From a virus, in IMG/VR virus record IMGVR_UViG_3300017746_003582, positions 1 to 39,904 of that record: a DNA stretch of 39,904 nt. One strand, 5' to 3'. Positions 5,255 through 21,244 of this stretch are shown piece by piece. The notes beneath the pieces were generated by a model that was not told where the DNA came from, ran no database searches, and was given only the letters and a program-made list of their open reading frames with translations. Within the stretch, counting starts at the first letter, position 1. Each line of letters begins with the position of its first letter. A program made the position numbers and the translations under genes.

Positions 5255-5785
5255 TTAGTAGTGAGTGTAGAACTTATGTCTACCAATTTGAGTGACTTCA
5301 GTCATTTGTTCAGCCCATTTAGGGCTTACATAGTCTGCATGATAGTAATTAACATCATCTAATCCTGTGATCCATTGATCTCCATCCAACACAGATTTAG
5401 CAATCCTATGTGATCTGTTCCAGTTTATCCCTGCAGGCAGAGTCCAGTGTTTGGACCTTTGATTTGCCCATGAGAATTGATGTTTATCTAAGACTACCTT
5501 ACAAATAGAGTCAGGATACTTTGGATTTCGGACACGATTTAACGTCACCTGAGCCACAGCATATTGCCCTATTTCTGGCTCTGTTCCTGCTTCATGGAAG
5601 ATGTTCTTTGCCAAACAAAAGAGATCAAGGTCTGTATAAAGAGGACTAGGCTCGATGATTTTTGCAGGAATGTCAACTTGATAAGCGACTTGTCCCTGAG
5701 GGGTATTTGAAGGTACAGGGAATGCGGAGATTATTATCAGCCCTCCCATAACACCTATACAGATGTTAAACATAATTCTAATCAT
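5255..5785 (-). CDS. SleB-type cell wall hydrolase (phage endolysin) with N-terminal membrane segment
   Basis: 176 aa. Residues 1-22 form a hydrophobic signal/anchor segment (MFNICIGVMGGLIIISAFPV). Residues about 55-176 match the Hydrolase_2/SleB family: LAKNIFHEAGTEPEIGQYAVAQV, LNRVRNPKYPDSICKVV, HQFSW, and YYHADYVSPKWA near the end. In FHEAGTE the Glu is the expected catalytic acid. This family cleaves peptidoglycan and serves as endolysin in many marine phages. The membrane segment suggests export by the host Sec system, as in signal-anchor-release endolysins (inference). A late promoter core lies only 4 nt before the ATG, so it is expressed late and probably from a leaderless RNA. Confidence 0.85.
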   Translation of the reverse strand: MIRIMFNICIGVMGGLIIISAFPVPSNTPQGQVAYQVDIPAKIIEPSPLYTDLDLFCLAKNIFHEAGTEPEIGQYAVAQVTLNRVRNPKYPDSICKVVLDKHQFSWANQRSKHWTLPAGINWNRSHRIAKSVLDGDQWITGLDDVNYYHADYVSPKWAEQMTEVTQIGRHKFYTHY

Positions 5786-5789
5786 ATAG

Positions 5790-5795
5790 TATTTA
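5790..5795 (-). promoter_or_regulatory. Late promoter abutting the lysis gene start codon
   Basis: TAAATA on the minus strand with a 4-nt gap (CTAT) to the ATG at 5785-5783. With T4 late promoter geometry +1 falls on or next to the start codon, so no leader or Shine-Dalgarno site is possible. Confidence 0.6.
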
Positions 5796-5831
5796 TTAAG
5801 TCTAATGATTTCATTATACTAGATTTTTATG

Positions 5832-6269
5832 TCAAGGTATATCTTTTTGGGTATCTTTTAAGATATCCCACACTTTGTTTTTCTCAATCAATTCTTTTTC
5901 AAGTTCAACATAACGTTCTCTAAGTTCTCTTAATTCAGACCATTCTTTTTCTAGTTCAGAATTAGGTTGTAAGATCGCAAGTTTTTTGTTTACTTCTTCT
6001 TGCCATTCTTGTAGACCATCTAATGCTTTTAGTTTACGTTCAGTAAGAGTTTCTCCACCAATTGTAATAGTATCACTATATGATGTGTCCCAATTAGTAT
6101 TCAAGGTAAATGAATCTGATGATAAACTATCTAAGATGTTTGTGCCGTTTAACGGATCTAACTTAGAAATGGTTATTGTTGAATTATTATCAGTAGAATA
6201 ATAATCACCTAAGTCTAGGTCCAACTGGCTAGTGTCGATTTCGATCGGATCAGGTTTTGGCCTAATCAT
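5832..6269 (-). CDS. Conserved hypothetical phage protein with C-terminal coiled coil
   Basis: 145 aa. The N-terminal 75 residues are acidic and Ser/Thr/Asp-rich (TSQLDLDLGDYYST; DTSYSDTITIGGETLTERK), and the C-terminal half (about 80-140) is a charged heptad-like helix (NSELEKEWSELRELRERYVELE). This combination is common among T4-like cyanophage and pelagiphage hypotheticals. Its GGGAGGG ribosome-binding site is very strong. It starts 46 nt upstream of the lysis gene's start and could be a structural or scaffolding-type component. Function unknown. Confidence 0.8.
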   Translation of the reverse strand: MIRPKPDPIEIDTSQLDLDLGDYYSTDNNSTITISKLDPLNGTNILDSLSSDSFTLNTNWDTSYSDTITIGGETLTERKLKALDGLQEWQEEVNKKLAILQPNSELEKEWSELRELRERYVELEKELIEKNKVWDILKDTQKDIP

Positions 6270-6347
6270 TTTTCCCTCCCTGTATAGCAGTTCATTTTTA
6301 CTTACAATATTGTCTCACAACTTCATGGTCATTATCAAGTATAATGG

Positions 6348-6527
6348 TCAAACATCATCACCTTTGCGTAATTCTTCTTTTTGAACTCTACGGAAACGTT
6401 TGTTGTAACCACGTTTGATGGACTTAGCAACACCTGAGTTAGTCAGATAAATGTAATATTTACGAGCAGATGTTAGTGCATCATATTCTGCACCACCCTT
6501 CAAGGGTATTCTTTTTTTCTTAGACAT
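6348..6527 (-). CDS. Small basic phage protein (59 aa)
   Basis: The start is placed at MSKKKRIPLKGG, which has a GGAG site 7-8 nt upstream. It is highly basic (KKKR at the N-terminus, then SIKRGYNKRFRRVQKEELRK), which suggests nucleic-acid binding. The central part (EYDALTSARKYYIYLTNSGVAKSIK) looks helical. It overlaps the upstream 53-aa ORF by 8 nt, so it is probably translationally coupled to it. No known family recognised. Confidence 0.75.
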   Translation of the reverse strand: MSKKKRIPLKGGAEYDALTSARKYYIYLTNSGVAKSIKRGYNKRFRRVQKEELRKGDDV

Positions 6528-6681
6528 GCCTATACTCCAAAAAAGTGTAGAATTTAAACCACAGAAATGAAACATCTAAACAATGTTCAGTTAACGATAT
6601 TGAAATAGATGGTAATAAGTAGACAGTTTTTTCATATGTCCACTGATTACTGAAACGATATACTCTTTTACATGACACCAT
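6520..6681 (-). CDS. Small hypothetical phage protein (53 aa)
   Basis: ATG at 6681-6679 preceded by AGAGGTC. The protein is beta-rich and aromatic (KRVYRFSNQWTYEKTVYLLP; then SFLWFKFYTFLEYRHV). Support comes from the ribosome-binding site and from the coupled overlap (8 nt) with the start of the 59-aa gene. A hairpin (6690-6705) can hide its Shine-Dalgarno sequence. A longer reading starting at 6741 runs into a structured RNA region and is less likely. Function unknown. Confidence 0.55.
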   Translation of the reverse strand: MVSCKRVYRFSNQWTYEKTVYLLPSISISLTEHCLDVSFLWFKFYTFLEYRHV

Positions 6682-6689
6682 AGTAGTGA

Positions 6690-6705
6690 CCTCTATTAAT
6701 AGGGG
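6690..6705 (-). promoter_or_regulatory. Hairpin covering the ribosome-binding site of the 53-aa gene
   Basis: Minus strand CCCCTAT-TA-ATAGAGG forms a 7-bp stem (one G-U) whose 3' arm contains the GAGG of the Shine-Dalgarno site 8 nt before the ATG at 6681. Read-through RNA from the tRNA genes would be translationally closed, a control type known in T4 (for example e and soc). Confidence 0.5.
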
Positions 6706-6775
6706 TGGGGCAGAGTGACAGGGTTTGCATGTCTCAAGCATCCGATTGAGGCTAGTGTTGTTCTAGCCGTACCCC
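6706..6775 (-). ncRNA. Candidate structured small RNA next to the tRNA pair
   Basis: Immediately after tRNA-Arg(TCT), minus-strand RNA can form GGCTAG-(7 nt)-CTAGCC (6750-6768) and CTCAA-(8 nt)-TTGAG (6733-6750), closed by GGGGTA (6775-6770) with TGCCCC (6712-6707). It is cloverleaf-sized but has no T-loop or valid anticodon loop, so it is not a functional tRNA. T4 carries stable RNAs C and D in its tRNA cluster; this may be an analogue or a decayed tRNA. Structure read by eye only. Confidence 0.35.
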
Positions 6776-6779
6776 AATT

Positions 6780-6855
6780 TGGCCCGCCCTCCAGGATTCG
6801 AACCTGGGACCTACTGCTTAGAAGGCAGTTGTTCTATCCACTGAACTAAGAGCGG
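6780..6855 (-). tRNA. trnR: tRNA-Arg (anticodon TCT)
   Basis: Full cloverleaf on the minus strand: acceptor CCGCTCT/AGGGCGG, anticodon loop CTTCTAA with anticodon TCT (reads AGA), T-loop GGTTCGAATCC, discriminator G, and an encoded CCA at 6782-6780. It reads the AGA codon, which is favoured in AT-rich genes. Confidence 0.95.
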
Positions 6856-6883
6856 TAAAACTTTTCCTTATGTTGATTGCAAT

Positions 6884-6960
6884 TGGCGCGGCTGGAAGGA
6901 GTCGAACCTCCGACTTCCTGGTTCGTAGCCAGGTACTCTATCCAGCTGAGTTACAGCCGC
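6884..6960 (-). tRNA. trnR: tRNA-Arg (anticodon ACG)
   Basis: Cloverleaf on the minus strand: acceptor GCGGCTG/CAGCCGC, anticodon stem CCTGG/CCAGG, loop CTACGAA with anticodon ACG (CGN arginine codons after A-to-I editing), T-arm GAGGTTCGACTCC, discriminator G, encoded CCA. It begins 7 nt after the DUF2693 stop codon and is evidently cotranscribed with it. Confidence 0.95.
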
Positions 6961-6967
6961 GGGCTAA

Positions 6968-7372
6968 TTAGTCTTTATATAAGACTTGTGTGATATTTTT
7001 AATAACGAAACTTCTCCAACCTTCTGCGTTGATATCATAGACTGCGAGACTGTTATTAGGGTTTTTAATCTTTCTTTCTGGCTTCTTTTCTTCACCCTCT
7101 GTAACTACTTTCGCAGGCAATATTTCAGTGTTAAGTGTACAAGTCATTACCCTTGTCTCACCATTAAGTTTAGTAAATGTTACTTCAGCAGTCTTAGTTT
7201 GTAATTCATGCTTAAGAACAGTTCTAAACGTAATCCAATCACCTTCTTCCCAATTATCTACTGGTTGCAATGCTGTTTCTCCTTTTCCACCGCGTGTTGA
7301 ATCATTTGTAAGAACTCCAGTTACAAAAGTAACTTTAGTATCTACATCAAAATTATTAATTTTTTCGTACAT
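6968..7372 (-). CDS. DUF2693 / SH3-barrel-fold phage protein
   Basis: 134 aa. The C-terminal half carries the family signature: RVMTCTLNTEILP at about residue 73, then NNSLAVYDINAEGWRSF at about 107-123, ending in KNITQVLY. Family members are small beta-barrel proteins of T4-like and other phages with no known function, often encoded among early genes. An AAGGATAG site precedes the ATG. The gene has a 146-nt structured leader and is followed after 7 nt by two tRNA-Arg genes, so it sits in a mixed mRNA/tRNA operon. Confidence 0.8.
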   Translation of the reverse strand: MYEKINNFDVDTKVTFVTGVLTNDSTRGGKGETALQPVDNWEEGDWITFRTVLKHELQTKTAEVTFTKLNGETRVMTCTLNTEILPAKVVTEGEEKKPERKIKNPNNSLAVYDINAEGWRSFVIKNITQVLYKD

Positions 7373-7384
7373 TTCTATCCTTGT

Positions 7385-7518
7385 AAAAAGCGAGAGTAGA
7401 TGAACAGTGTAAATCTTAAGACTTACCTAGTCCTTCAGCGGACTCCAGCCACCTACTCTCTAATGTTTAAGACACGCTCCCTAGCAATAATTAGCAATTT
7501 AACGTTTCGTGTCTTATG
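7385..7518 (-). ncRNA. Structured 5' leader RNA (candidate cis-regulatory element)
   Basis: Minus-strand RNA starting near 7518 can fold into two domains. First comes a 9-bp stem, TAAGACACG with CGTGTCTTA (about 7516-7508 with 7476-7468). Then comes a three-way junction closed by a 12-bp helix (7460-7449 with 7404-7392, GAGAGTAGGTGG pairing with TTCATCTACTCTC, with G-U pairs and one bulge). The junction holds the hairpins AGTCC-(6 nt)-GGACT and GTAAGTCT-AGATTTAC. The closing helix is followed by GCTTTTT (T-run 7389-7385), as in a terminator, 13 nt before the DUF2693 ATG. This layout suits a riboswitch-like attenuator or a small RNA ending at the T-run. I cannot match it to a named class. Confidence 0.5.
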
Positions 7519-7524
7519 TCCTAT

Positions 7525-7530
7525 ATTATA
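7525..7530 (-). promoter_or_regulatory. Possible promoter of the leader RNA / DUF2693 / tRNA-Arg operon
   Basis: TATAAT on the minus strand inside AGTATAATATAGG, just after the metallophosphoesterase stop codon. The best -35 at 17-bp spacing is a weak TTTATT. +1 would fall near 7518, right at the foot of the first leader hairpin, which supports the assignment. Confidence 0.5.
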
Positions 7531-7534
7531 CTAC

Positions 7535-8134
7535 CTAGTGGGAGTTAAATAAAGCGTTCTGGGCAGATTGATCTTTCTTAGGAGTCGGACCGTTACCTTG
7601 TACCATACCTAACTTGCCACCTTGTGCTACAATTCTGTCAACCATATCTTCAAACTCAATAGGCTTTAAGTCTGTATGCTCAACAGAGACACACAAGAAT
7701 CTAGGGTCGATCTTATCACCTTGCATAACTCTATTCATATGTAAGTGACCATGTACGTTGCATCCGAATCTGCCTAACTGATCAACATGTATTGGTATGT
7801 GAGTAAACACTAACCCGTTCATTACATGACAGCCTCTGACATCTTTGAACACATCTACGTACTTGTTTAACTTCAACTGATCATGGTTACCCTTGACAAG
7901 TATTTTGATGCCATTCATTTGCTTAACTTTGTCAAGCCCTCTAGCATTAAAAGCAATGTCTCCTAACATGTAGACTTTATCAGTAGGCTTGACAATCTCA
8001 TTGTGCATTTGAACCATAGCATCTTCCATATCTTGCACAGTATCAAAATCACGGGCTTTTGTTCCATCCGTGTTTTTAAAGTTGACCACATTGTTATGGC
8101 CAAAATGCAAATCTGCTGTAAAAAACTGAGACAT
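7535..8134 (-). CDS. Calcineurin-like metallophosphoesterase
   Basis: 199 aa with the complete dinuclear-metal motif set: DLHFGH (residues 8-13), LGDIAF, VKGNHDQ, FTHIPIH and VHGHLH. These give all Asp/His/Asn ligands of an active calcineurin-like phosphoesterase. The compact form resembles phage and bacterial phosphodiesterases that act on nucleotides or phosphorylated nucleic acid ends; the substrate is unknown. It has an AAGGATAAAC site before the ATG and follows the 167-aa gene by 19 nt, so both are transcribed from early promoter copy D. Confidence 0.87.
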   Translation of the reverse strand: MSQFFTADLHFGHNNVVNFKNTDGTKARDFDTVQDMEDAMVQMHNEIVKPTDKVYMLGDIAFNARGLDKVKQMNGIKILVKGNHDQLKLNKYVDVFKDVRGCHVMNGLVFTHIPIHVDQLGRFGCNVHGHLHMNRVMQGDKIDPRFLCVSVEHTDLKPIEFEDMVDRIVAQGGKLGMVQGNGPTPKKDQSAQNALFNSH

Positions 8135-8153
8135 TGTTTATCCTTTTATTCTA

Positions 8154-8657
8154 TTAAGCGGCTTTATGAAAAGCCTCTACCTCAACATTAAGTTGAGGAT
8201 CTTTGCTGTCGAACCAACCATTATCAACTTTGTACTGACAAGCATAGTTGGTGCGTTCTTGCTCAGGGAGCAAGTCCCATTGTTCAGACTTAGCATGAAC
8301 TGCTTGGTTCATGCAACCCATATCACTGTTAGTAGTGAACTTAAGAGCAGACCATTTGCCGTCTGCATACTTAAGAATAGTAGGAGTTTCCCACTTCTCG
8401 CACACAACCGCATTATCGTCCTCAAACGACCAGTCAATGATGTACTCGGCAGAGACAGAGTTAGAGTACTCGATCAAGCCAGTAAGAGTAGGAATACCCT
8501 TCTCAGCAATGCTAAGGCACTGGTTAGGAGTCAAACCCTCAACTACGTAAGTGTCGCCACCCTTGAACTTCCAATGGGCTTCAGGACCCTCTACAGGATA
8601 ACCATCGTTATCAAAAGAGTAGTTTTCTTTGTACTGTGTGTTGATTACTAATTTCAT
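8154..8657 (-). CDS. Conserved hypothetical phage protein (167 aa)
   Basis: First gene behind early promoter copy D, with a GGAG site 7 nt before the ATG. The protein starts KLVINTQYKENYSFDNDG, contains HWKFKGGDTYVVEGL and several Trp residues, and looks like an acidic soluble alpha/beta protein. Similar sequences are, as far as I recall, frequent in marine myoviruses, where they remain uncharacterised. The following gene is a metallophosphoesterase, so the pair may act together early in infection. No function can be given. Confidence 0.75.
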   Translation of the reverse strand: MKLVINTQYKENYSFDNDGYPVEGPEAHWKFKGGDTYVVEGLTPNQCLSIAEKGIPTLTGLIEYSNSVSAEYIIDWSFEDDNAVVCEKWETPTILKYADGKWSALKFTTNSDMGCMNQAVHAKSEQWDLLPEQERTNYACQYKVDNGWFDSKDPQLNVEVEAFHKAA

Positions 8658-8697
8658 ATTGACTCCGTCGCATTGACTTATTGTTGAATATGTACAT

Positions 8698-8726
8698 ATT
8701 ATACGGGGTATTTACCCAAAAGTCAA
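8698..8726 (-). promoter_or_regulatory. Early sigma70 promoter (copy D, spaced operator)
   Basis: Minus strand: TTGACT (8726-8721), 17-bp spacer TTTGGGTAAATACCCCG, TATAAT (8703-8698), A7-GGC upstream. The palindrome here is GGGTA-AA-TACCC, the same half sites with a 2-bp insert, which supports a dimeric protein site or a conserved promoter extension. Confidence 0.85.
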
Positions 8727-8777
8727 GCCTTTTTTTGCTTTTTTTTTGATTTTTTTTCTGGTAGTATGGGTCCTTAC

Positions 8778-8783
8778 TAAATA
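8778..8783 (+). promoter_or_regulatory. Late promoter abutting the nucleotidyltransferase start
   Basis: TAAATA followed by exactly 5 nt (TATGC) and the ATG at 8789. The predicted +1 coincides with the A of the ATG. No Shine-Dalgarno sequence lies within reach. Confidence 0.65.
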
Positions 8784-8788
8784 TATGC

Positions 8789-9493
8789 ATGAACATACTA
8801 ATATTAGCCGCTGGACTTGGCACTAAATTTGAAGGGACACACTCTGATCATAAAAGCCTAATCCCTGTGAATGGTCAGCCAATGTTAATCAAAGCCATCA
8901 AAAGTTTAGAGATGGACAAAGATGAGGGTAACAACTTCATTTTCTTAATACCGAGTGATTCCGACATCGTTTCACAACTAGAACCAGAGATTAGGAAAGC
9001 GTTCCCAACAAATTGCAGAGTTGTAGTTGTAAATGATCCTACTGAAGGACCTGCTGATACTGCAATTAAAGCATCTGATTATATCAACACAGATGAAGAA
9101 TTGCTAATTGTCAACAGTCATCAAATTTTATATTGGAGCGATGCTCAAAGAGATAATATCTTTGATACATTGCGAGATTTTGATGCAGGAGTTATCACTG
9201 TTAAAAGTGATGATCCTAGTCATTGTTATATCGATTTAGATTCAGGACAGTTAGTAGAAAAAGAAGTTGTTAGTGATCAAGCATTAATAGGGCTTTACTG
9301 GTGGAAACAAGGCACAGACTTTGTTAGTTCTACTAAGTTAATGATGCAATCTGGCTTAAGATCAAATGGTGAGTATGCTCTTGGACCAGTCTACAATTCA
9401 TTTTCTGGACTTGCTGGATACTATGAAGTCGAAAATTCTATTATTAAATTCATACGCACACCTGAAGAGTTAGAATCATACACTCACTTATAA
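8789..9493 (+). CDS. Nucleotidyltransferase-like protein (MobA/GlmU-type fold)
   Basis: 234 aa. The N-terminal signature NILILAAGLGTKF, then DHKSLIPVNGQPML, is the nucleotide-binding loop of sugar-phosphate nucleotidylyltransferases, which make NDP-sugars or CDP-alcohols. NDPTEGPADTAI (about 82-93) and ELLIVNSHQILYW (about 105-117) follow at the expected places. In relatives the latter reads NSDQ or NGDQ, with the Asp binding the metal; here it is His, so activity may be altered. It is a single-domain protein of ordinary length for small members. It leads an island of odd late enzymes and has an apparently leaderless late transcript. It may prepare sugars for capsule, LPS or virion modification (inference). 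Confidence 0.75.
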   Translation: MNILILAAGLGTKFEGTHSDHKSLIPVNGQPMLIKAIKSLEMDKDEGNNFIFLIPSDSDIVSQLEPEIRKAFPTNCRVVVVNDPTEGPADTAIKASDYINTDEELLIVNSHQILYWSDAQRDNIFDTLRDFDAGVITVKSDDPSHCYIDLDSGQLVEKEVVSDQALIGLYWWKQGTDFVSSTKLMMQSGLRSNGEYALGPVYNSFSGLAGYYEVENSIIKFIRTPEELESYTHL

Positions 9494-9930
9494 GATTTAA
9501 GTATTTCTTGCATTAGTTGTGGTTGACGATGTGCTACATCTAGTTCCCAAGGCAACATCAAATATTCTTTATATGGTATATCTTCGATAATTATTTCATA
9601 TGGCACAGTGTCCCAGACATAGATACTATCATGTGCAATCATCAATCTACCTTCATGCATTTGATTAACATGTATAAGTTCATGCACTAATGGAGTAAGT
9701 ATATCGTTGAGTTCAAGTTGCATATTCATTCTAATATGCTTTTCACTGCCATGTTTTAATAATGAATCTGCATAGTTACTATTGCCTAGTTCACAAAACT
9801 CTATTGTCAATACATCAGGAAAAGAGAGATGTTCGCTTACTGCATCACATACTGATCTGGCTATCTTACATTTATTAGTATCTTTATCAGTTAAGAGATG
9901 ATCTTTTGGAAACAAGAATTTTAATTGCAT
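9484..9930 (-). CDS. Putative zinc metallopeptidase-like protein (HELIH)
   Basis: 148 aa from ATG 9930-9928 (MQLKFLFPKD). A longer reading from 10101 is rejected because it runs through the divergent promoter and the 2OG oxygenase gene. LVHELIHVNQMHEG (residues 82-95) is a classic HExxH zinc site in a helix, with a possible third ligand at E129 or D131 (PWELDVAHR). Overall it resembles small SprT/gluzincin-like peptidases found in phages; target unknown. It converges on the nucleotidyltransferase gene with a 10-nt overlap, and its late promoter lies 5 nt before the ATG, back to back with that of 9959. Confidence 0.7.
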   Translation of the reverse strand: MQLKFLFPKDHLLTDKDTNKCKIARSVCDAVSEHLSFPDVLTIEFCELGNSNYADSLLKHGSEKHIRMNMQLELNDILTPLVHELIHVNQMHEGRLMIAHDSIYVWDTVPYEIIIEDIPYKEYLMLPWELDVAHRQPQLMQEILKSYK

Positions 9931-9935
9931 ACTAC

Positions 9936-9941
9936 TATTTA
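9936..9941 (-). promoter_or_regulatory. Late promoter abutting the HELIH gene start
   Basis: TAAATA on the minus strand with exactly 5 nt (GTAGT) before the ATG at 9930. It is divergent from, and only 5 bp away from, the plus-strand core at 9947-9952. Confidence 0.62.
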
Positions 9942-9946
9942 CTGAA

Positions 9947-9952
9947 TAAATA
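9947..9952 (+). promoter_or_regulatory. Late promoter abutting the first 2OG oxygenase start
   Basis: GAATAAATA with a 6-nt gap (TAGAAT) to the ATG at 9959. Together with 9936-9941 it forms a very compact divergent pair of late promoters feeding two leaderless genes. Confidence 0.62.
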
Positions 9953-9958
9953 TAGAAT

Positions 9959-10594
9959 ATGGCCACTTTAACAGATTTTATCGTCAACTGGGGAGAAGTC
10001 GTAGAACTAGACTTTCCTAAAATGGACTTGAACCATGTCAAAAATGTTTGTGACAAGCATCCAGGTTGGAAAGAATACCAGTCACATAAAAAGCCAAACA
10101 ATCGTCATGGATTAAGTGTAACTAGTTTAGATGGCGGATTTAGTGGAGAGCCAGATTTGTTTAGTTTACGAGAGTGGGGTAAAATTCATGGAGAGTTTTA
10201 TTCAGAGGGTGATATTAAAACTCGTACAAATGTCTGTGCATTAATACCAGAACTAGATGAGTTCTTAAATTTCTGGGAACCTAACTTAGGCAGAACACAC
10301 TTCTTAAGATTAGATCAAGGTGGACACTTTCCTCCTCATAGAGATAACGGAGCGATAGTAGCAGTGCCAACATTTAGAATTCTTGTGCCTATATACAACT
10401 TCGGTCCTAACGACATGAAGTGGATACAAGAAGATCGTGTGTTGAACTTAGAATTAGGCGCAACATACTTTATTAACACAAGCAGATTGCATAGTCTGTT
10501 TAGTTTTGTTAATAACTGTTTAATGTTAGTTATTAACGTGAATACAGATGAGCATATTTTAAATAAGATGGTGAGAAAAATTGTCGCAATATAA
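9959..10594 (+). CDS. 2OG-Fe(II) oxygenase / Asp-Asn hydroxylase-like protein
   Basis: 211 aa. The double-stranded beta-helix core is at about 112-195: HFLRLDQGGHFPPHRDN provides the metal-binding H127-x-D129, RILVPIYNF follows, and the distal His is probably H178 in INTSRLHSLFSF. The arrangement resembles aspartyl/asparaginyl beta-hydroxylase and other iron/2-oxoglutarate oxygenases that hydroxylate proteins or small molecules. The substrate is unknown. It overlaps the PP-loop gene by 14 nt, suggesting that the two proteins are made together and may act in one pathway. Late promoter core 6 nt before the ATG, no Shine-Dalgarno site. Confidence 0.75.
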   Translation: MATLTDFIVNWGEVVELDFPKMDLNHVKNVCDKHPGWKEYQSHKKPNNRHGLSVTSLDGGFSGEPDLFSLREWGKIHGEFYSEGDIKTRTNVCALIPELDEFLNFWEPNLGRTHFLRLDQGGHFPPHRDNGAIVAVPTFRILVPIYNFGPNDMKWIQEDRVLNLELGATYFINTSRLHSLFSFVNNCLMLVINVNTDEHILNKMVRKIVAI

Positions 10595-11603: not shown

Positions 11604-12401
11604 TCCTCTGCCAGGATTAGAACATAACTTAGCACCTAAAAAGTTAACTGATTTTTCGTGGTGTGAAGTTACCCACAGTCGATCACCATCACCAGGCTGT
11701 CCTTTTAAATGCATTTTATATGGAGAATATTTGATATTGTCTAGTCTAGGATCTTTATATGGATTAAGATGTGTTACGACAATACCATAATGTTTATATG
11801 CAATTTGTTCTGTTTCCCATTTTCGTAACTTGTTTTCTTGCTCTAAGAATTTTTCTTTTACCCATTCAGGAGTTGCCCAAGCAATACCATCACTAAACAA
11901 TCTTAAATCTGTATTAGGCAATCCTGCTGTTTCGCCATAATGTGTCTTTGTTTGACCTTGACAGACTGTTTTATGAAACCAAGTATCTTCCCAATTATCA
12001 TATGATATAATATTAGGAAATCCAAAACACGGCCATACAGCAACTGTTTGACCAGTCTGTAGTTCTATCAACAGTCCTTGATCGTCTCTATAATCTTTCC
12101 AGTGAAGATTGTTAGGCCAATCAGTGTTTTGTTTACGAGTGCTTATAGAAATTTCTTGTTCATCTTTGATTTTATCTGTATGACGTAAGTATCTTTCATA
12201 AGTTCCATCATTAAAAACAAATTGTATATTAGGATAAAGAGTAGCAATTTGAAATGCATAATGCCAACTTCGTTTTGAAGACCAGCCTAAGTTTCCATTC
12301 ATTATAACTAGATCAACATCTGGTAATGTCAAGTCTTCACTTGATGTCGGTTCATTAAATCCGTAGAAAAGATCATGTATTATATGTACTTTGAATGACA
12401 T
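11568..12401 (-). CDS. Degenerate metallophosphoesterase-fold protein
   Basis: 277 aa. The order of blocks follows calcineurin-like phosphoesterases: VHIIHDLFYGF, DLVIMNGNLGW, FVFNDGTYERY, GIVVTHLNPY, LWVTSHHEKSV, ending LCSNPGRG. Several ligands seem replaced (NGNLG for the usual GDxxG, NDGT for GNHE, SHHE for GHTH), so it may be catalytically altered or only keep the fold. The LCSNPG ending is typical of the superfamily. It may instead be a separate phosphoesterase branch. It has a late promoter core 5 nt before the ATG and no ribosome-binding site, and overlaps the PP-loop gene by 36 nt at the 3' ends. Confidence 0.55.
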   Translation of the reverse strand: MSFKVHIIHDLFYGFNEPTSSEDLTLPDVDLVIMNGNLGWSSKRSWHYAFQIATLYPNIQFVFNDGTYERYLRHTDKIKDEQEISISTRKQNTDWPNNLHWKDYRDDQGLLIELQTGQTVAVWPCFGFPNIISYDNWEDTWFHKTVCQGQTKTHYGETAGLPNTDLRLFSDGIAWATPEWVKEKFLEQENKLRKWETEQIAYKHYGIVVTHLNPYKDPRLDNIKYSPYKMHLKGQPGDGDRLWVTSHHEKSVNFLGAKLCSNPGRGSIARGKVLEVD

Positions 12402-12406
12402 AATAA

Positions 12407-12412
12407 TATTTA
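12407..12412 (-). promoter_or_regulatory. Late promoter abutting the degenerate phosphoesterase start
   Basis: TAAATA on the minus strand, exactly 5 nt (TTATT) before the ATG at 12401-12399. Confidence 0.62.
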
Positions 12413-12442: not shown

Positions 12443-12498
12443 GTAGTGGAAATGATTATCTTCAACGTTGCTAAAAGACGTATTCCAGCGAGGATTGA

Positions 12499-15131: not shown

Positions 15132-15148
15132 GTAAACCCCAAACGTCA

Positions 15149-15154
15149 TAAATA
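15149..15154 (+). promoter_or_regulatory. Late promoter abutting the second 2OG oxygenase start
   Basis: TAAATA, exactly 5 nt (TCTTT) before the ATG at 15160. No ribosome-binding site. Confidence 0.65.
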
Positions 15155-15159
15155 TCTTT

Positions 15160-15948
15160 ATGCACGTTGATCACTATATAGAAGACACGCCAGATGTACA
15201 TTGGCCAGAAATTCTACAACCTCTAAACTTATATACATATAAAAATGTATATGATGATCATATCTACAAGCAATTAAAAAATACCATAGTTAGTCACTTA
15301 AACAATCATAATCAAGTAACTTCTGCAGGGTACAAAACACACAACACGACATTTATTCATAACGATAGAAAATTACATTTGCTTTCTAATGTATCAAAAA
15401 CAGTTCAAAGATATCAACAAGTATTTTTTGATTTGTCTATGGAGAGAAATTATTGGCATCAAACAAAAGATACAATACATGATTGGGCATGGAATGAGTT
15501 ACACAAAACTACTCACCCTTTACTGTATCATCACTTATCGCATTTCAAGTCTATAGAACCACATGATGAAGATTCTTGGATACCTGTAAGATGTCATATC
15601 AATTATTTAGAATACACAAAGTATCTTTACATGCATATAGACATGCAAGATAGCATGTTTAATACACCAATGGCTTCATTTGCTAAAGCAAGAACATTAA
15701 CGTTTTATCTATACAATCACATAGAAGGTGAGGGTGGAGAATTCTATACTCACAATGGTTTTGTTTATAAACCCAAAGAGAACGAAGCCATATCGATTAA
15801 CGGAAACGCAGTACTGCACGGAGTTAATTCTAACATGAATAGTAATATTCCGAGACTTGCATTTTCAGTTCGTTGGGTTCACAAAGATGATTTATATCTA
15901 CCTGGTCATCCTGACAAATCGATGTATACACAGGAGTTTTTTGATTGA
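15160..15948 (+). CDS. 2OG-Fe(II) oxygenase-like protein
   Basis: 262 aa. The beta-helix core is at about 145-245: YMHIDMQDS gives the metal pair H159-x-D161, RTLTFYLYNHIEGEGGEFYTH follows, NAVLHGVNSN supplies the distal H220, and RLAFSVRWVH the 2-oxoglutarate-binding R232. The His-rich first 140 residues are specific to this protein. It resembles the prolyl/small-molecule hydroxylase-type oxygenases that are frequent in marine T4-like phages. Substrate unknown. Its TGA stop overlaps the TTG start of a GNAT gene, so an acetyltransferase and an oxygenase are coproduced. Late and probably leaderless. Confidence 0.78.
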   Translation: MHVDHYIEDTPDVHWPEILQPLNLYTYKNVYDDHIYKQLKNTIVSHLNNHNQVTSAGYKTHNTTFIHNDRKLHLLSNVSKTVQRYQQVFFDLSMERNYWHQTKDTIHDWAWNELHKTTHPLLYHHLSHFKSIEPHDEDSWIPVRCHINYLEYTKYLYMHIDMQDSMFNTPMASFAKARTLTFYLYNHIEGEGGEFYTHNGFVYKPKENEAISINGNAVLHGVNSNMNSNIPRLAFSVRWVHKDDLYLPGHPDKSMYTQEFFD

Positions 15949-16818: not shown

Positions 16819-16824
16819 GCTACT

Positions 16825-16956
16825 TTACATATAAAAAAGTTGTGACATACATAAAAACATTGATCCCCAAAGCATAGCATAACATAATGCTTCTAACTTC
16901 TGTTCAAATTTTTTAAAAATGCCGGTTTTGTCTATTACTAATCTAATAGTATTCAT
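16825..16956 (-). CDS. Small membrane protein (43 aa)
   Basis: ATG at 16956-16954 overlapping the upstream TGA (ATGA), with an excellent GGAG site. Basic amphipathic N-terminus (MNTIRLVIDKTGIFKKFEQK) followed by one hydrophobic segment, about 21-43 (LEALCYAMLWGSMFLCMSQL). It is a typical single-span phage microprotein. Function unknown. Confidence 0.6.
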   Translation of the reverse strand: MNTIRLVIDKTGIFKKFEQKLEALCYAMLWGSMFLCMSQLFYM

Positions 16957-17072
16957 AATACTCCTGTGTGTACGTGTTGTTCTTGTATATCTCTTAATAC
17001 TCTACTGATGCCTGCCGCACTATCCATATGCAGTGAAAACATCAACATTGTATAAAATGTAATCCTAACCAT
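16953..17072 (-). CDS. Small hypothetical protein (39 aa)
   Basis: ATG at 17072-17070 with GAGAGAGA upstream. Short hydrophobic Met/Phe-rich N-terminus (MVRITFYTMLMFSLHM), then a polar helix (RVLRDIQEQHVHTG). Coupled by ATGA to the 43-aa ORF. No family recognised. Confidence 0.5.
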   Translation of the reverse strand: MVRITFYTMLMFSLHMDSAAGISRVLRDIQEQHVHTGVL

Positions 17073-17089
17073 GTGTCTCTCTCTGTGTA

Positions 17090-17191
17090 TTATATCGTCG
17101 GACTCACTGCCATTATAGACAAACAAAAGATAGTAACAAGACACAGCAATTCACACTGCTCTCTTACCTTCGCTATTTTCTTAACTGACAT
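17090..17191 (-). CDS. Very small membrane protein (33 aa)
   Basis: ATG at 17191-17189 with an AGGA site 5-6 nt upstream. Basic N-terminus (MSVKKIAKVREQ) and one hydrophobic segment (CELLCLVTIFCLSIMAV). It is the first ORF of the tiny-gene chain behind the late promoter at 17256-17263. Short, so confidence rests on the ribosome-binding site, promoter and tandem arrangement. Confidence 0.5.
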   Translation of the reverse strand: MSVKKIAKVREQCELLCLVTIFCLSIMAVSPTI

Positions 17192-17255
17192 GATTTCCTA
17201 AATATAAACGTAACTGATATCATTTTATAACACAAGGTTATAAAACTTTCGACTC

Positions 17256-17263
17256 TATTTATA
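17256..17263 (-). promoter_or_regulatory. Perfect T4 late promoter (TATAAATA) for the microprotein operon
   Basis: Full TATAAATA on the minus strand, 65 nt upstream of the first tiny ORF. It lies between that ORF and the terminator of the outer-membrane protein gene, so the microprotein operon has its own late transcript. Confidence 0.7.
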
Positions 17264-17320
17264 CCAATTTTTCCATAACTAGATTTAACTGCCATTTTTT
17301 TCAATTTATAAATTGAAGCC

Positions 17321-17346
17321 AAAAAAAAGCACTCCGAAGAGTGCTT
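17321..17346 (-). terminator. Intrinsic terminator after the outer-membrane protein gene
   Basis: Minus strand AAGCACTC-TTCG-GAGTGCTT, an 8-bp stem with a UUCG tetraloop, followed by eight T. It lies 21 nt after the stop codon of the gene at 17367-18023. Confidence 0.9.
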
Positions 17347-17366
17347 AAATTTAGAGATTGTTTCGA

Positions 17367-18023
17367 TTAAAAATGATAAACGTAATTAACAAATAAGTTG
17401 TCTTCGTCTATAAATCCGGAACCATCATCGGCAGTAAAATCAGTCCAACCAACTTTTACATGTCCTTTCAAAAGATCGAAACCTCGTGAAATTGAATAAT
17501 GAGTTCCTTTACCATCAGCATCACCATATGCTAAGTCTACAACTTTTAATAACCCAGTTGAAAATTCAGTATAGTCAGGTGCATCGTCTTGTCCCATAAA
17601 ATGAGATAGAGTTACACCAGCGATTGTAGCAGATAACAATATTTCTTCTCTGTCTAATGCTGAGTGGCCTCGGTATGCGTAGTCGATATATGCTACATTA
17701 ATACCAAAATGATCCCAATCTTTTTTAAGACCGATAACAGTATCGATTTCATGTGTGGCTTTGCCATCACCATAATCAACTTCTGATACCCAAGCACTAG
17801 TATAGATGCCACCAATTAAATCAGCATCAATTGATGCAGATAATGCGTAACTACCTTCATGCTGTGATATGCCTCTAAAGACATAATCTGATCCTACGCC
17901 AACACTGCCACTGAACGTGGAAGCACTGACTCCATTTGCAATACAAACTAATGATATTGCTATCACTAATTTAATTACGTTATCGAAATGGGCTGATATT
18001 AAGCCCTTTATTTTTTCTAACAT
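17367..18023 (-). CDS. Outer-membrane beta-barrel protein of the TIGR02001 (Gcw_chp) type
   Basis: 218 aa. Signal peptide at about 1-35 (hydrophobic IKLVIAISLVCIANG, likely cut after VSA). The mature start, SGSVGVGSDYVFRGISQHEG, is the family signature of TIGR02001 outer-membrane proteins. Alternating beta strands follow (YTSAWVSEVDYG, GINVAYIDYAYRG), and the C-terminus ends in an aromatic residue (VNYVYHF), as in BamA-inserted barrels. This is a bacterial envelope gene, rarely seen in phages. It has a strong AAGGAG site, a late promoter (18057-18062) and a strong terminator, all signs of a functional, well-expressed cargo gene. It may change host permeability or block superinfection (inference). 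Confidence 0.82.
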   Translation of the reverse strand: MLEKIKGLISAHFDNVIKLVIAISLVCIANGVSASTFSGSVGVGSDYVFRGISQHEGSYALSASIDADLIGGIYTSAWVSEVDYGDGKATHEIDTVIGLKKDWDHFGINVAYIDYAYRGHSALDREEILLSATIAGVTLSHFMGQDDAPDYTEFSTGLLKVVDLAYGDADGKGTHYSISRGFDLLKGHVKVGWTDFTADDGSGFIDEDNLFVNYVYHF

Positions 18024-18056
18024 ATGTTTCTCCTTGCGTTTTGCAATTATTATTAT

Positions 18057-18062
18057 TATTTA
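18057..18062 (-). promoter_or_regulatory. Late promoter of the outer-membrane protein gene
   Basis: TCTAAATAATAAT on the minus strand. +1 near 18051 leaves a 28-nt leader with the AAGGAG site. Confidence 0.5.
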
Positions 18063-18074
18063 GATTAAGTTTAC

Positions 18075-18227
18075 CTATTTACGTTGGGTATTCTTATAAC
18101 GGCTAATACTTCCTCCGCCGCCCCCACCGGAGCCTCCGGCTTTACCATTTTTGTCTTTTCTTTTTCTAATTACAAAAAAGATGACACCGCCAATAATAGC
18201 GATTGCTAGTAGTGTTTGAAAATCCAT
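18075..18227 (-). CDS. Small membrane protein with glycine-rich tail (50 aa)
   Basis: ATG at 18227-18225 with a perfect GGAGGAAAG site. N-terminal membrane segment (MDFQTLLAIAIIGGVIFFVI), a basic stop-transfer stretch (RKRKDKNGK), then AGGSGGGGGGS and a short polar end. The type I or III orientation would put the Gly-rich tail in the cytoplasm. Oligoglycine-tailed single-span proteins of this size occur in marine phages; function unknown. It is directly upstream of the outer-membrane protein gene. Confidence 0.75.
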   Translation of the reverse strand: MDFQTLLAIAIIGGVIFFVIRKRKDKNGKAGGSGGGGGGSISRYKNTQRK

Positions 18228-18266
18228 AAACTTTCCTCCTTTAGAATTTTTCGTTTATAATCAAAC

Positions 18267-18274
18267 TATAAATA
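18267..18274 (+). promoter_or_regulatory. Perfect late promoter sequence (TATAAATA), plus strand
   Basis: TATAAATA 118 nt upstream of the gene at 18392, within a region with no other plus-strand gene. It gives a second, longer transcript for that gene. The 164-nt gap 18228-18391 otherwise holds only the promoter at 18381 and the leader of the 50-aa gene. Confidence 0.5.
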
Positions 18275-18380
18275 GTTTTCTTACTCCCATATTTACCGGT
18301 TTTTAGGGCAGTAAAGACTATGTATACAAAATATAGTAGCACTTAGTTATGGCTTTAAAAAGCTATAGGAATCGACTGCA

Positions 18381-18386
18381 TAAATA
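18381..18386 (+). promoter_or_regulatory. Late promoter abutting the start at 18392
   Basis: ATAAATA core with exactly 5 nt (CTCAC) before the ATG at 18392. No ribosome-binding site. Confidence 0.65.
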
Positions 18387-18391
18387 CTCAC

Positions 18392-19063
18392 ATGAGAAAA
18401 AAAGTTCAAGTTATCATCTATATCACTGGCTTGGGCGGTAACATATTAAGATTCTTGCTGTCTCTTCACAATAACACTTATCCATTATATTCCAAAGATT
18501 TATGGAACAATAACAAACCTCGACATGAAATGTACTCATTCAAAAATATAGAAGAAGAGTATAAAAGTTGGGCTGATTATGAATGTTCAGTGCAATGGAA
18601 TAAACCAAATACAAATACAACATTAAACGACTTTATAGCAAATGATGAATACGACACACTAACAGTTGCTGATAATCCAGATGCTATAGACTTAGAAGAT
18701 TTCAGAAGACCAAACATAGATGTAACTTTGTTGACCATTGACATTAGTGAAAAACATGAACCGATGATACAAGAGTTTTTAAAAGCAAATCAAAATGATT
18801 TCGAGTATTTTACTCTTCGAGGATCTGTTACAGATAATAGACAACGAAAACTTATGGATATCTTCCGAAAAGATTATAAGCCATATTCTTTTAACCATGA
18901 TTGTTTTATTGAAGGAGAAGAATCATTCATAGAAGAATACAAAAAGTTATTAATACATCTTAGATACAAACATGATGAAACTGTGCTACAAGATGCAGTA
19001 ACATTATATCGCGGTTGGCATGATGCTAGAATGGCTAAATTACCCGAAAAAACCTCTATTTAA
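18392..19063 (+). CDS. Hypothetical protein (223 aa), weak sulfotransferase-like start
   Basis: The N-terminus VQVIIYITGLGGNILRFLLSLHNN looks like a nucleotide or PAPS-binding strand-loop-helix (G-L-G-G-N), as in sulfotransferase-like proteins of marine phages, but the usual sulfotransferase 3' motif is not evident. The middle and C-terminal parts are charged and helical (HEPMIQEFLKANQNDFEYFTL; KKLLIHLRYKHDE). It belongs to the group of late genes whose promoter core is 5 nt from the ATG. Function unknown. Confidence 0.6.
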   Translation: MRKKVQVIIYITGLGGNILRFLLSLHNNTYPLYSKDLWNNNKPRHEMYSFKNIEEEYKSWADYECSVQWNKPNTNTTLNDFIANDEYDTLTVADNPDAIDLEDFRRPNIDVTLLTIDISEKHEPMIQEFLKANQNDFEYFTLRGSVTDNRQRKLMDIFRKDYKPYSFNHDCFIEGEESFIEEYKKLLIHLRYKHDETVLQDAVTLYRGWHDARMAKLPEKTSI

Positions 19064-19106
19064 CAACAATTTAAGAATACTTCTTTATAAACCCCTCAAA
19101 TCCTGC

Positions 19107-19112
19107 TAAATA
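19107..19112 (+). promoter_or_regulatory. Late promoter of the 73-aa membrane protein gene
   Basis: GCTAAATATT. +1 near 19118 gives a leader of about 40 nt ending with a GAGGAGG Shine-Dalgarno sequence. Confidence 0.55.
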
Positions 19113-19158
19113 TTAGTGAGGAAAAGCAATAATGCAAAATATTTGAGGAGGACTCAAT

Positions 19159-19380
19159 ATGAATAATGTAATAGCAATAGTCAATGACGCGGTCAAAGGA
19201 CTTACTAGCATCTTTGTAGGCCTATTAGGTCTCGGTGTGGTAGCTGGCATAGTATTCGGTGACTTGATGGGAATCGATGTTGTCGGTGGATTGTTAGGAT
19301 TAGTTAATCAACTAGGTGAAGCCGGATTTGTTGGCTTACTAGTAGCAATCATTTTAGTTCATTTATTTACAAAAGAGTAA
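19159..19380 (+). CDS. Small hydrophobic membrane protein (73 aa), probably abundant
   Basis: Two glycine-rich hydrophobic segments, about 15-35 (LTSIFVGLLGLGVVAGIVFG) and 42-68 (VGGLLGLVNQLG, then GFVGLLVAIILVHLF), with a short charged end TKE. It has a canonical late promoter, a very strong GAGGAGG site and a good terminator 20 nt after the stop, the signature of a highly expressed late gene. It could be a holin, a membrane-remodelling protein or a virion membrane-penetration peptide; sequence alone cannot decide. Confidence 0.75.
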   Translation: MNNVIAIVNDAVKGLTSIFVGLLGLGVVAGIVFGDLMGIDVVGGLLGLVNQLGEAGFVGLLVAIILVHLFTKE

Positions 19381-19394
19381 ATTTAAGAATTTAT

Positions 19395-19421
19395 AAAGAG
19401 CAGACTTAAGTCTGCTTTTTA
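19395..19421. terminator. Bidirectional terminator between convergent genes
   Basis: Perfect 18-bp palindrome AGCAGACTTAAGTCTGCT followed by TTTTT on the plus strand. The minus-strand side has a weaker CTCTTTAT tract. It ends the membrane protein transcript and probably that of the reductase gene coming from the other side. Confidence 0.85.
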
Positions 19422-19425
19422 TTGG

Positions 19426-20139
19426 CTATTGATCTACGAATGCTTTTTCAATAACGAACTGACCAGGCTCTCTGTTTGACCCTTCAGTCATGCCTAATGC
19501 TTTACACCATTCAACAACATCATAGTTGAATTGTAAGTTACCACAAGCCATGACACGATCATCTGATTGTATAAATCTTGCGTCTATACGTTCATCTCCT
19601 TCGCCTGTGACTAATGCTGTATATTCTAGTTTGTCTTTTAACAGTTCATGCAAATCAGGTTCGTCTGCAAATATAGATAGCAACTCTTGCTCATATGCGA
19701 GGTCATCTCTACTTCTTACACTATGTACTACATGTATAGATTCGTATGCTTCAACTAAATCTATATCTCTTATCGTTGACATGAAAGGAGCAAGACCTGT
19801 TCCTGTTGCTAGTAATATTAATCTTTTACCACCTTCAGTGAGGAAAGTATCACGTAATGTTCCAGTGCATTTAGGGAGTAACAATACTTCTGTACCTTCT
19901 TCTACCTTACTAAGTTGATTTGTTAACGGGCCTACATCTTTGATGCTTAGAAATTCTAAGTAGTCAGCCCAAGAAGGACTAACGATACTATATGCACGTA
20001 ATACTCTTTTGCCATCTACTTCTTGTCCGATCATCGCAAACTCACCAGAGTTAAATCTAAACGATTCACTTCTAGTTGTTTTAAAACTAAATGTACGATC
20101 AGACCAATGATTGATTTGTATTACTTTTTCTGTTAGCAT
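19426..20139 (-). CDS. fpr: Ferredoxin/flavodoxin-NADP reductase
   Basis: 237 aa, the usual size of bacterial FNR. RAYSIVSP (R48-S51) binds FAD, ATGTGLAPFMSTIRD (about 111-125) binds NADP(H), ACGNLQFNYDVVEW is the C-G-N nicotinamide site, and the protein ends in VIEKAFVDQ, as in bacterial Fpr enzymes. It moves electrons between NADPH and ferredoxin or flavodoxin in the cytoplasm. In a phage it may feed ribonucleotide reductase or radical SAM chemistry (inference). The ATG lies only 5 nt after the encoded CCA of tRNA-Leu, without a Shine-Dalgarno site, so tRNA 3' processing would leave a nearly leaderless mRNA. Confidence 0.9.
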   Translation of the reverse strand: MLTEKVIQINHWSDRTFSFKTTRSESFRFNSGEFAMIGQEVDGKRVLRAYSIVSPSWADYLEFLSIKDVGPLTNQLSKVEEGTEVLLLPKCTGTLRDTFLTEGGKRLILLATGTGLAPFMSTIRDIDLVEAYESIHVVHSVRSRDDLAYEQELLSIFADEPDLHELLKDKLEYTALVTGEGDERIDARFIQSDDRVMACGNLQFNYDVVEWCKALGMTEGSNREPGQFVIEKAFVDQ

Positions 20140-20144
20140 AATAT

Positions 20145-20231
20145 TGGTACCCGGAGCCGGACTTGAACCGGCATGACATTACTGTCGAGGGATTTTAAGT
20201 CCCTTGTGTCTACCAATTCCACCACCCGGGC
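20145..20231 (-). tRNA. trnL: tRNA-Leu (anticodon TAA)
   Basis: Class II tRNA on the minus strand with a long variable arm (GACA-GTAA-TGTC), acceptor GCCCGGG/TCCGGGT (G-U at both ends), anticodon loop CTTAAAA (TAA, reads TTA), discriminator A and encoded CCA. Its first base is also the last base of the TAG stop of the upstream 68-aa ORF. Confidence 0.93.
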
Positions 20232-20437
20232 TAATCTAGTTTCCACTCCATGTTTTCTTCAAGTGCATGTTGCACACCTTGAATATAATCCCTATCTTCC
20301 TCACTCAAAATTTCCCATGCAAAAGTAACTTTGTCTAGTAGATCATGTACTTTATCTGGGTCTGCAAGATGTTCATTTGCTTCCATAATACGTTGTATTT
20401 CATCCATTCTCGCAGTCAACTTTTCACGTAAATTCAT
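20231..20437 (-). CDS. Small helical hypothetical protein between tRNA genes (68 aa)
   Basis: Start at the ATG giving MNLREKLTARMDEIQ, with GAGAGAG 4-10 nt upstream. Acidic and fully helical in character (HDLLDKVTFAWEILSEEDRD), ending ENMEWKLD. It lies 20 nt after tRNA-Ala, and its TAG stop shares a base with tRNA-Leu. Because RNase P must cut right behind its stop codon, translation and tRNA maturation may compete. A conserved-looking phage protein of unknown function. Confidence 0.75.
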   Translation of the reverse strand: MNLREKLTARMDEIQRIMEANEHLADPDKVHDLLDKVTFAWEILSEEDRDYIQGVQHALEENMEWKLD

Positions 20438-20457
20438 AGACTCTCTCATATAGTAAG

Positions 20458-20533
20458 TGGTGGAGCGAATAGGGATCGAACCTACGACCTGCTGGTTGCA
20501 AACCAGCCGCTCTCCCAACTGAGCTACCGCCCC
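20458..20533 (-). tRNA. trnA: tRNA-Ala (anticodon TGC)
   Basis: Acceptor GGGGCGG/TCGCTCC, anticodon stem GCTGG/CCAGC, loop TTTGCAA (TGC, reads GCA and GCG), T-arm with GGTTCGATCCC, discriminator A and encoded CCA. Confidence 0.95.
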
Positions 20534-20540
20534 AAAAAAC

Positions 20541-20616
20541 TGGAGCTCCTGGACCGAGTCGAACGGACGACCTACTGATTACAAATCAGTTGCTCTACCA
20601 ACTGAGCTACAGGAGC
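20541..20616 (-). tRNA. trnT: tRNA-Thr (anticodon TGT)
   Basis: Acceptor GCTCCTG/CAGGAGC, anticodon stem ACTGA/TCAGT, loop TTTGTAA (TGT, reads ACA), discriminator T, encoded CCA. First gene of the tRNA operon, 7 nt upstream of tRNA-Ala. The decoded codons (ACA, GCA) dominate the repeat-built fibre genes. Confidence 0.95.
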
Positions 20617-20636
20617 TATTACTATATTTAGTGTCT

Positions 20637-20664
20637 ATTATATCACATAAAATAATTTTGTCTA
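20637..20664 (-). promoter_or_regulatory. Sigma70-type promoter of the tRNA/reductase operon
   Basis: Minus strand: -35 TAGACA (20664-20659), 16-bp spacer, -10 TATAAT (20642-20637), about 15 nt before tRNA-Thr. A TAAATA core nearby (ACTAAATATAG, 20630-20625) could add late expression. Confidence 0.65.
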
Positions 20665-20681
20665 CGTGGTATTATCCCAAT

Positions 20682-20687
20682 TAAATA
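20682..20687 (+). promoter_or_regulatory. Late promoter abutting the methyltransferase start
   Basis: TAAATA, exactly 5 nt (GTACT) before the ATG at 20693. No ribosome-binding site. Confidence 0.65.
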
Positions 20688-20692
20688 GTACT

Positions 20693-21244
20693 ATGGACTT
20701 ATTATCATTTTCTCACGGACAAACACAAAGCAAACTTTGGCTCTGTGAAACTATTGAGCAGTATCTACCAAAAGATGCTGTAGTTGCTATAGTTGGATGC
20801 TGGTATAATATGTTAGGTTTTATGCTTTTAACTCGTAACAAAAGCATGTATCAGCACATCTTAGGCATAGATATTGACTCAGAAGCGATTAGTATCGCTG
20901 ATAGGCTATGTCAAGGCTTCATGCTTGGAGTAGATTCACGGATTAAAAATACACATGCAAATGCAGATACACATAACTTGCAAGGACACAACGTAGTAAT
21001 CAACTGTAGTGTAGAGCATATGTCTGATGACTGGTTCAATAATGTAGATCCAAATGCATTAGTTTGTATACAATCAAGTGATGTATCTAAAGAAGAAGAA
21101 CCTTGGTTAGTCACTAATCCTTGCTCATCATTAGAAGCATTAAAGGAACGATTTCAACTATCTGAAATATTAGTTGAAGAAACAAAACATTTTAATTATG
21201 GGAGTTCAAGTTACAATCGTTACATGATCATTGGCAGAAAATAA
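20693..21244 (+). CDS. Class I SAM-dependent methyltransferase-like protein
   Basis: 183 aa from the ATG giving MDLLSFSHGQTQ; a codon at 20666 would lie upstream of the promoter. VVAIVGCWYNMLGFML (about 29-44) is the SAM-binding motif I position, ILGIDIDSEAISIADRL (about 56-72) the acidic motif II, NADTHNLQGHNVVINCSVEHMSD the motif III/IV region. The substrate is unknown. Its stop overlaps the radical SAM gene start (TAATG), so a methyltransferase and a radical SAM enzyme are made from one late transcript and probably share a substrate or both use phage-made SAM. Confidence 0.72.
   Translation: MDLLSFSHGQTQSKLWLCETIEQYLPKDAVVAIVGCWYNMLGFMLLTRNKSMYQHILGIDIDSEAISIADRLCQGFMLGVDSRIKNTHANADTHNLQGHNVVINCSVEHMSDDWFNNVDPNALVCIQSSDVSKEEEPWLVTNPCSSLEALKERFQLSEILVEETKHFNYGSSSYNRYMIIGRK

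Follow-up and report, generated by a model that had tools for sequence, protein, structure and literature searches.

The DNA considered here, the whole of a 39,904-base viral fragment in IMG/VR (IMGVR_UViG_3300017746_003582; hereafter the window), raises the question of whether a phage late promoter can lie so close to a start codon that the resulting message has no leader. Upstream of eight genes the hexamer TAAATA, the core of the T4 late promoter, stands almost directly before the ATG, at a distance of 5 nt in six cases, 6 nt for 9959(+) and 4 nt for 5785(-), exactly as an initial annotation of this DNA had proposed, and no Shine-Dalgarno (SD) site precedes any of the eight (Table 1). We consider it very probable that the eight belong to the late genes of a T4-like phage and are expressed as leaderless mRNAs, with gp55 directing the start of transcription to the A of the ATG. 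Leaderlessness is strongly predicted by the position of the box together with the base preferred at +1, as described below.

A promoter core at a fixed distance from the start codon

Counted over the whole window, TAAATA is not enriched (51 observed, 57 expected), and the full T4 octamer TATAAATA, with 2 occurrences where 5 are expected, was rejected as the signal; the signal is therefore positional. The pattern TAAATANNNNNATG occurs eight times and its reversed form not once. Six of the eight occurrences are gene starts, and the two that are not lie at 23413 and 37997. Among the 183 window ATGs that open at least 100 codons, six have the core at exactly 5 nt and eight at 4–6 nt, as compared with means of 0.16 (maximum 3) and 0.50 (maximum 4), respectively, in 2,000 dinucleotide shuffles.

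Relatives of the window were gathered by a search with its S-adenosylmethionine (SAM) synthetase (24693-25826, minus strand; metK-like, phrog_1569, named from phage homologues), and the best 80 uncultured contigs, 71–99% identical in this protein, were used; the protein of 15160 yielded no relatives as a query. The distance count proposed in the initial annotation, made over these genomes with permuted hexamers as background, peaked sharply at 5 nt. In the window and its 80 relatives, 45 starts have the core at 5 nt and every other distance has at most 15. Permuted hexamers mostly gave nothing comparable, except where they overlap TAAATA itself; the one unrelated spike, TTAAAA with 39 starts, comes from this 80-relative set, in which close relatives are counted repeatedly. 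Over the window and 16 larger contigs, 24, 87, 14 and 10 starts fall at 4, 5, 6 and 7 nt, followed by a near-empty interval at 8–16 nt (1–8 per position) and a second, broad hump at 17–34 nt, where SD sites are common. The 5-nt peak is present in all ten contigs examined singly. When every 6-mer was counted at each position upstream of 1,165 gene starts, without prior choice of motif, TAAATA at 5 nt ranked first (60 vs. 5.8), above the SD motifs, and no core with one mismatch exceeded 9 at 5 nt, as against 72 for the exact hexamer.

The spacing is also conserved within gene families. In nine families represented in three or more contigs the spacing stays at 5 or 6 with rare exceptions, even as the spacer bases have diverged (GTACT, CTATT, TCTTT and CATAT all occur in the 20693 family), whereas in leadered families the distance mostly drifts, for example over 25–34 or 27–36 nt. 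True starts farther downstream with SD sites of their own had been named as a finding that would undo the class, but an in-frame, SD-preceded start lies within 25 codons in only 1 of 104 class members, as against 3 of 104 farther inside the genes, and in none of the eight window genes. Start codons of the class at 4–7 nt are ATG in 115 cases, GTG in 8 and TTG in 5, and those of SD-led genes are ATG 267, GTG 27 and TTG 39, so that GTG and TTG make up 20% of the latter.

The four late genes cited for contrast do carry SD-like sites, namely GAGGAGGA at 19159, AAGGAG at 18023, AGGA at 17191 and AGGAG at 22909, the last of which starts with TTG. Their TAAATA cores are 46 nt (19159), 33 and 52 nt (18023), 64 nt (17191) and 28 nt (22909) from the start; at 64 nt the link of 17191 to its promoter is doubtful. 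Among leadered TAAATA genes in general, 67% have a strict SD site.

Predicted transcription start and mode of expression

In a review of T4 transcription the 8-bp late box is numbered from -13 and has no -35 element. A box that begins at -13 ends at -6, and +1 is therefore the sixth base after it. A occupies this position in 46 of 82 leadered promoters of the relatives and in 44 of 69 leadered promoters of four cultured phages, which in both sets is the highest A count among the 16 bases read downstream. In the class itself, the base directly before the ATG is a pyrimidine (T or C) in 65 of 74 cases. The sixth-base preference for A and the pyrimidine before the ATG together place the predicted +1 on the A of the ATG at a spacing of 5. 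No conserved block was found between -31 and -14 of the class promoters, hence no -35 element. A late-promoter class at a fixed distance, which has the A of the ATG as its predicted +1 and is kept in relatives, is thus borne out, and the leaderless state of its messages is what this arrangement predicts.

In the mechanism that we propose, gp55 would recognise TAAATA at -11 to -6, and RNA polymerase would initiate on the sixth base past the box, the A of the ATG. The message would then begin with 5'-AUG, and ribosomes would start via this 5'-terminal AUG without SD contact, so that promoter and translation start would be combined in the 14 bp of TAAATA-N5-ATG. A unit this small would allow a gene to face away from its neighbours, with some pairs sharing back-to-back promoters. 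Earlier read-through RNA would carry no ribosome-binding site for class genes, and as a likely consequence their translation would be tied to late transcription.

A wider proposal, which we put forward tentatively and rate at somewhat less than an even chance, is that one hexamer drives both a leadered and a leaderless late regulon in several T4-like lineages, among them those of Pelagibacter phage HTVC008M and Xanthomonas phage XacN1. The distance to the ATG would set the mode of translation and limit the leaderless set to late-initiated mRNA, and ribosomes altered during infection may serve it, as the phage-encoded bS21 of HTVC008M and of the uncultured contig G017 may suggest.

Several points weigh against leaderless expression from gp55-dependent promoters. 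The hexamer is exact in the class promoters, but the TA at -13 and -12 of the T4 consensus is not kept (A at -12 in 35 of 74, T at -13 in only 8 of 74); cyanophages likewise relax the octamer, to NATAAATA. The spacings of 4 and 7 nt require the start to shift by 1–2 bases or else leave a leader of 1–2 bases. Homologues of gp55 are found in XacN1 and in the larger contigs G003, G008, G018, G019 and G021 (E values from 1e-23 to 3e-63), so the link to gp55 comes from relatives; in the window, a fragment of 39.9 kb, no gp55 was seen and no search aimed at it was made. Matches to the gp45 profile among the carriers occur only in G018 and, weakly, in XacN1. The core in itself accounts for part of the low SD rate in the class. 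The 5' ends, the ribosome mechanism, the late timing and the gating are all predicted from DNA, and for uncultured carriers the use of leaderless mRNA by their hosts is presumed.

Alternative explanations

The nearest alternative, which we regard as unlikely, is a genuine promoter whose transcripts start 1–4 bases before the ATG, giving ultra-short leaders that would still have no SD site. Spacings do range from 4 to 7 nt, and start sites in bacteria are generally known to slide by 1–2 bases, but 87 of the 135 class starts are at exactly 5 nt, a pyrimidine stands before the ATG as would be expected before +1, and the A preference of leadered promoters falls on the sixth base. A host sigma-70-type promoter, yielding leaderless mRNAs early in infection, has a much smaller probability. 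Leaderless genes of bacteria do have a TANNNT box about 10–12 bp before the start (PMC3160421), but the sequence here is TAAATA, TATAAT forms no peak at 5 nt (1 vs. 5.7), a conserved -35 is absent, and the orthologues of gp25, the tail tube protein and gp2 in the class have late functions.

It is just as improbable that TAAATA is not a promoter at all but an A/U-rich translation enhancer within leadered mRNAs made from upstream promoters. A-rich start regions aid translation in some bacteria, Flavobacterium among them (PMC6847099), but the class tolerates no change of even one base in the hexamer. The same hexamer also forms the 17–34 nt hump before SD-led genes, the sole hump in S-CRM01 and Syn9, and the 53% of class genes with a divergent upstream neighbour could hardly accommodate a further promoter (9930 and 9959, for instance, are 28 bp apart). 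Least credible of all is chance in an AT-rich genome combined with miscalled starts. TAAATA is indeed not enriched overall, but the shuffle tests, the conservation across contigs and the presence of the class in XacN1, whose GC content is 50%, argue against chance, and the distance peak in independent genomes contradicts it.

Distribution among T4-like phages

The class extends to cultured phages. HTVC008M, which infects SAR11, has 12 genes at 5 nt. XacN1, in whose 50% GC genome few chance sites are expected, has 9, 6 and 2 genes at 5, 6 and 7 nt, some of these sites being doubled by the terminal repeat, with nothing at 9–13 nt and the leadered hump present. The 5-nt peak is absent from T4, Syn9, PA5oct, Atu_ph07 (400 kb read), S-CRM01, CP220 and KVP40 (read in part), and S-CRM01 and Syn9 show only the 17–34 nt hump for TAAATA. 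The few 5-nt sites of T4 look like chance and were set aside. RaK2, 121Q, CBB, GAP32, Munch and the remaining T4-like phages gave no clear excess in a count of the 5-nt pattern against its reversed control only.

The larger relatives of the window carry gp23, the T4 major capsid gene, and gp55; on this account the window phage is taken to be T4-like, which the window alone is insufficient to show. In a gp23 tree, many of whose forks are weakly supported, carriers of the class occupy two distinct regions, with HTVC008M and G018 lying near the cyanophages, whereas XacN1 groups with G003, G006, G008, G019 and G021 near PA5oct and RaK2. For the gp23 DNA of G006 the nearest cultured phage is PA5oct, a Pseudomonas phage. 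Ancestral presence followed by losses and repeated gain are both compatible with this spread.

Gene content and orientation of the class

The initial annotation described the set as mostly enzymes, with the fibre and small membrane genes outside it. Restriction to enzymes, with structural genes excluded, does not hold, as the set in relatives contains gp25, the tail tube protein, the DNA end protector, other baseplate proteins and an endolysin. In HTVC008M it comprises the baseplate wedge protein gp25, the tail tube, the DNA end protector, another baseplate protein and a 2-oxoglutarate (2OG) oxygenase; in G018, baseplate subunits, the tail tube, the end protector and homing endonucleases; and in XacN1, an endolysin and structural proteins. 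The gp25 gene is of the leaderless type in HTVC008M, G018, XacN1 and G019 and leadered with an SD site in G021, and the mode can therefore switch within one gene family. Among the eight window genes only two, a nucleoside triphosphate (NTP) transferase and a cell wall hydrolase, reach the Pfam cut-off. Others have weak, sub-threshold matches to hydroxylase, oxygenase and methyltransferase families, of which those of the 15160-15948 gene (2OG-Fe(II) oxygenase) and the 20693-21244 gene (methyltransferase) are very weak.

Orientation is the best general mark of the class, better than gene function. The upstream neighbour is divergent for 67 of 126 class genes (53%); among leadered late genes the figure is 28 of 129 (22%; Fisher 2e-7 for the difference from the class), and among other genes 109 of 978. 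The back-to-back arrangement TATTTA-N5-TAAATA is in excess, with 11 cases at 5 nt and 0–4 at other distances, and recurs in relatives, some of the cases being orthologous; in the window the promoters of 9930(-) and 9959(+) are arranged in this way (TATTTA-CTGAA-TAAATA, within 9928-9961), with their ATGs 28 bp apart.

Two phage-encoded factors were considered as possible partners of the class and rejected. For phage IF3 the only carriers found were RaK2 and Atu_ph07, neither of which showed a peak in the searches made; this amounts to no more than a negative association based on two phages. A bS21 gene is present in HTVC008M and G017, but PA5oct and Atu_ph07 have one too, and none was found in XacN1; as it does not track the class, there is no consistent link. 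In a purified translation system, ribosomes carrying the bS21 of HTVC008M showed about 5% activity on a green fluorescent protein message (PMC6375957). This low activity may, as one possibility, reflect a shift of such ribosomes toward leaderless mRNA.

Comparison with known systems

Late transcription in T4 is textbook knowledge, and T4 late mRNAs are taken to have leaders with ribosome-binding sites. The class resembles the T4 late promoters (gp55/gp33/gp45) in having TAAATA at -11 to -6, no -35 element and gp55 in relatives, and both serve the late genes for gp25, the tail tube and gp2. It differs in lacking the upstream TA of the octamer and in its distance, since in T4 and cyanophages the box is mostly 17–34 nt from the ATG and an SD site often follows. 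Bacterial TA-led leaderless genes, in which a box about 10–12 bp before the start marks a leaderless gene (PMC3160421), are similar in layout, but their box is the host sigma-70-type TANNNT, whereas the class has a phage late-sigma hexamer and would be a set of lytic-phage genes defined by their timing. The cI mRNA of lambda is likewise a phage message that begins with AUG and is translated without an SD site, although it represents a single repressor gene of a temperate phage and not a set of late genes. In the late promoters of the jumbo phage phiKZ the transcription start also overlaps an ATG-like motif (TATG), but there a phage-encoded multisubunit RNA polymerase starts at G and there is no gp55-type box (PMC7598289). 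Lastly, the switches of T4 I-TevI and lysozyme e likewise make translation possible only from the late transcript; in these a hairpin hides the ribosome-binding site of the early RNA (PMC3014915), whereas the class would have no such site.

The initial annotation knew of no such promoter class in T4-like phages, and none was encountered here: the literature searched for leaderless mRNA in connection with T4-like phages, late promoters and phage transcriptomics holds no description, most subscription journals, and with them probably some cyanophage transcriptome papers, being outside its scope, to which the claim of novelty is accordingly bounded. If a conserved leaderless late class exists, the position of a promoter alone would switch the mode of translation, in cultured SAR11 and Xanthomonas phages and in carriers scattered over the capsid tree. 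Gene-start annotation would be altered in many aquatic phages, a 14-bp promoter-plus-start signal would be gained, and a phage-driven shift of ribosomes toward leaderless mRNA late in infection would become testable.

Other features of the window

Table 1. Promoter cores, class genes, and phage genes for IF3-like proteins and bS21. Positions refer to the window unless another genome is named.
Feature	Position	Strand	Remarks
TAAATA + 4 nt + ATG	5783..5795	-	5785-5255 gene
Cell wall hydrolase, endolysin-like class gene	5255..5785	-	PF07486, E 5e-25
TAAATA + 5 nt + ATG	8778..8791	+	8789-9493 gene; spacing 5 in 5/5 family members
NTP transferase-like class gene	8789..9493	+	PF12804, E 4.8e-6
TAAATA + 5 nt + ATG	9928..9941	-	9930-9484 gene (no function assigned); spacing 5 in 6/7 family members
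TAAATA + 6 nt + ATG	9947..9961	+	9959-10594 gene; spacing 6 in 5/6 family members
TAAATA + 5 nt + ATG	12399..12412	-	12401-11568 gene (no function assigned); spacing 5 in 7/7 family members
TAAATA + 5 nt + ATG	15149..15162	+	15160-15948 gene; spacing 5 in 6/6 family members
TAAATA + 5 nt + ATG	18381..18394	+	18392-19063 gene (no function assigned)
TAAATA + 5 nt + ATG	20682..20695	+	20693-21244 gene; spacing 5 in 11/12 family members, 4 in one
Late core of leadered gene 18023	18057..18062	-	33 nt from ATG; SD AAGGAG
Late core of leadered gene 22909	22938..22943	-	28 nt from TTG start; SD AGGAG
IF3-like protein, RaK2	JQ513383 138590-138841		Unusual for phages
IF3-like protein, Atu_ph07	MF403008 256-501		Unusual for phages
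bS21 gene, HTVC008M	KC465899 91237		
bS21 gene, PA5oct	MK797984 170985		
bS21 gene, Atu_ph07	MF403008 489120		
bS21 gene, G017	144594		

The SAM synthetase of the window is about 47–54% identical to proteins of phage GenBank records among the matches listed. The window also encodes the small subunit of ribonucleotide reductase and, at 12468, a subtilase. An FAD/NAD-binding reductase (19426-20139, minus strand) and a radical SAM protein (21244-22386, plus strand) are encoded near leaderless-type genes. Between 6787 and 6953, two stretches match tRNA-Arg genes of RaK2-like phages and of DLP_6 at about 91%.

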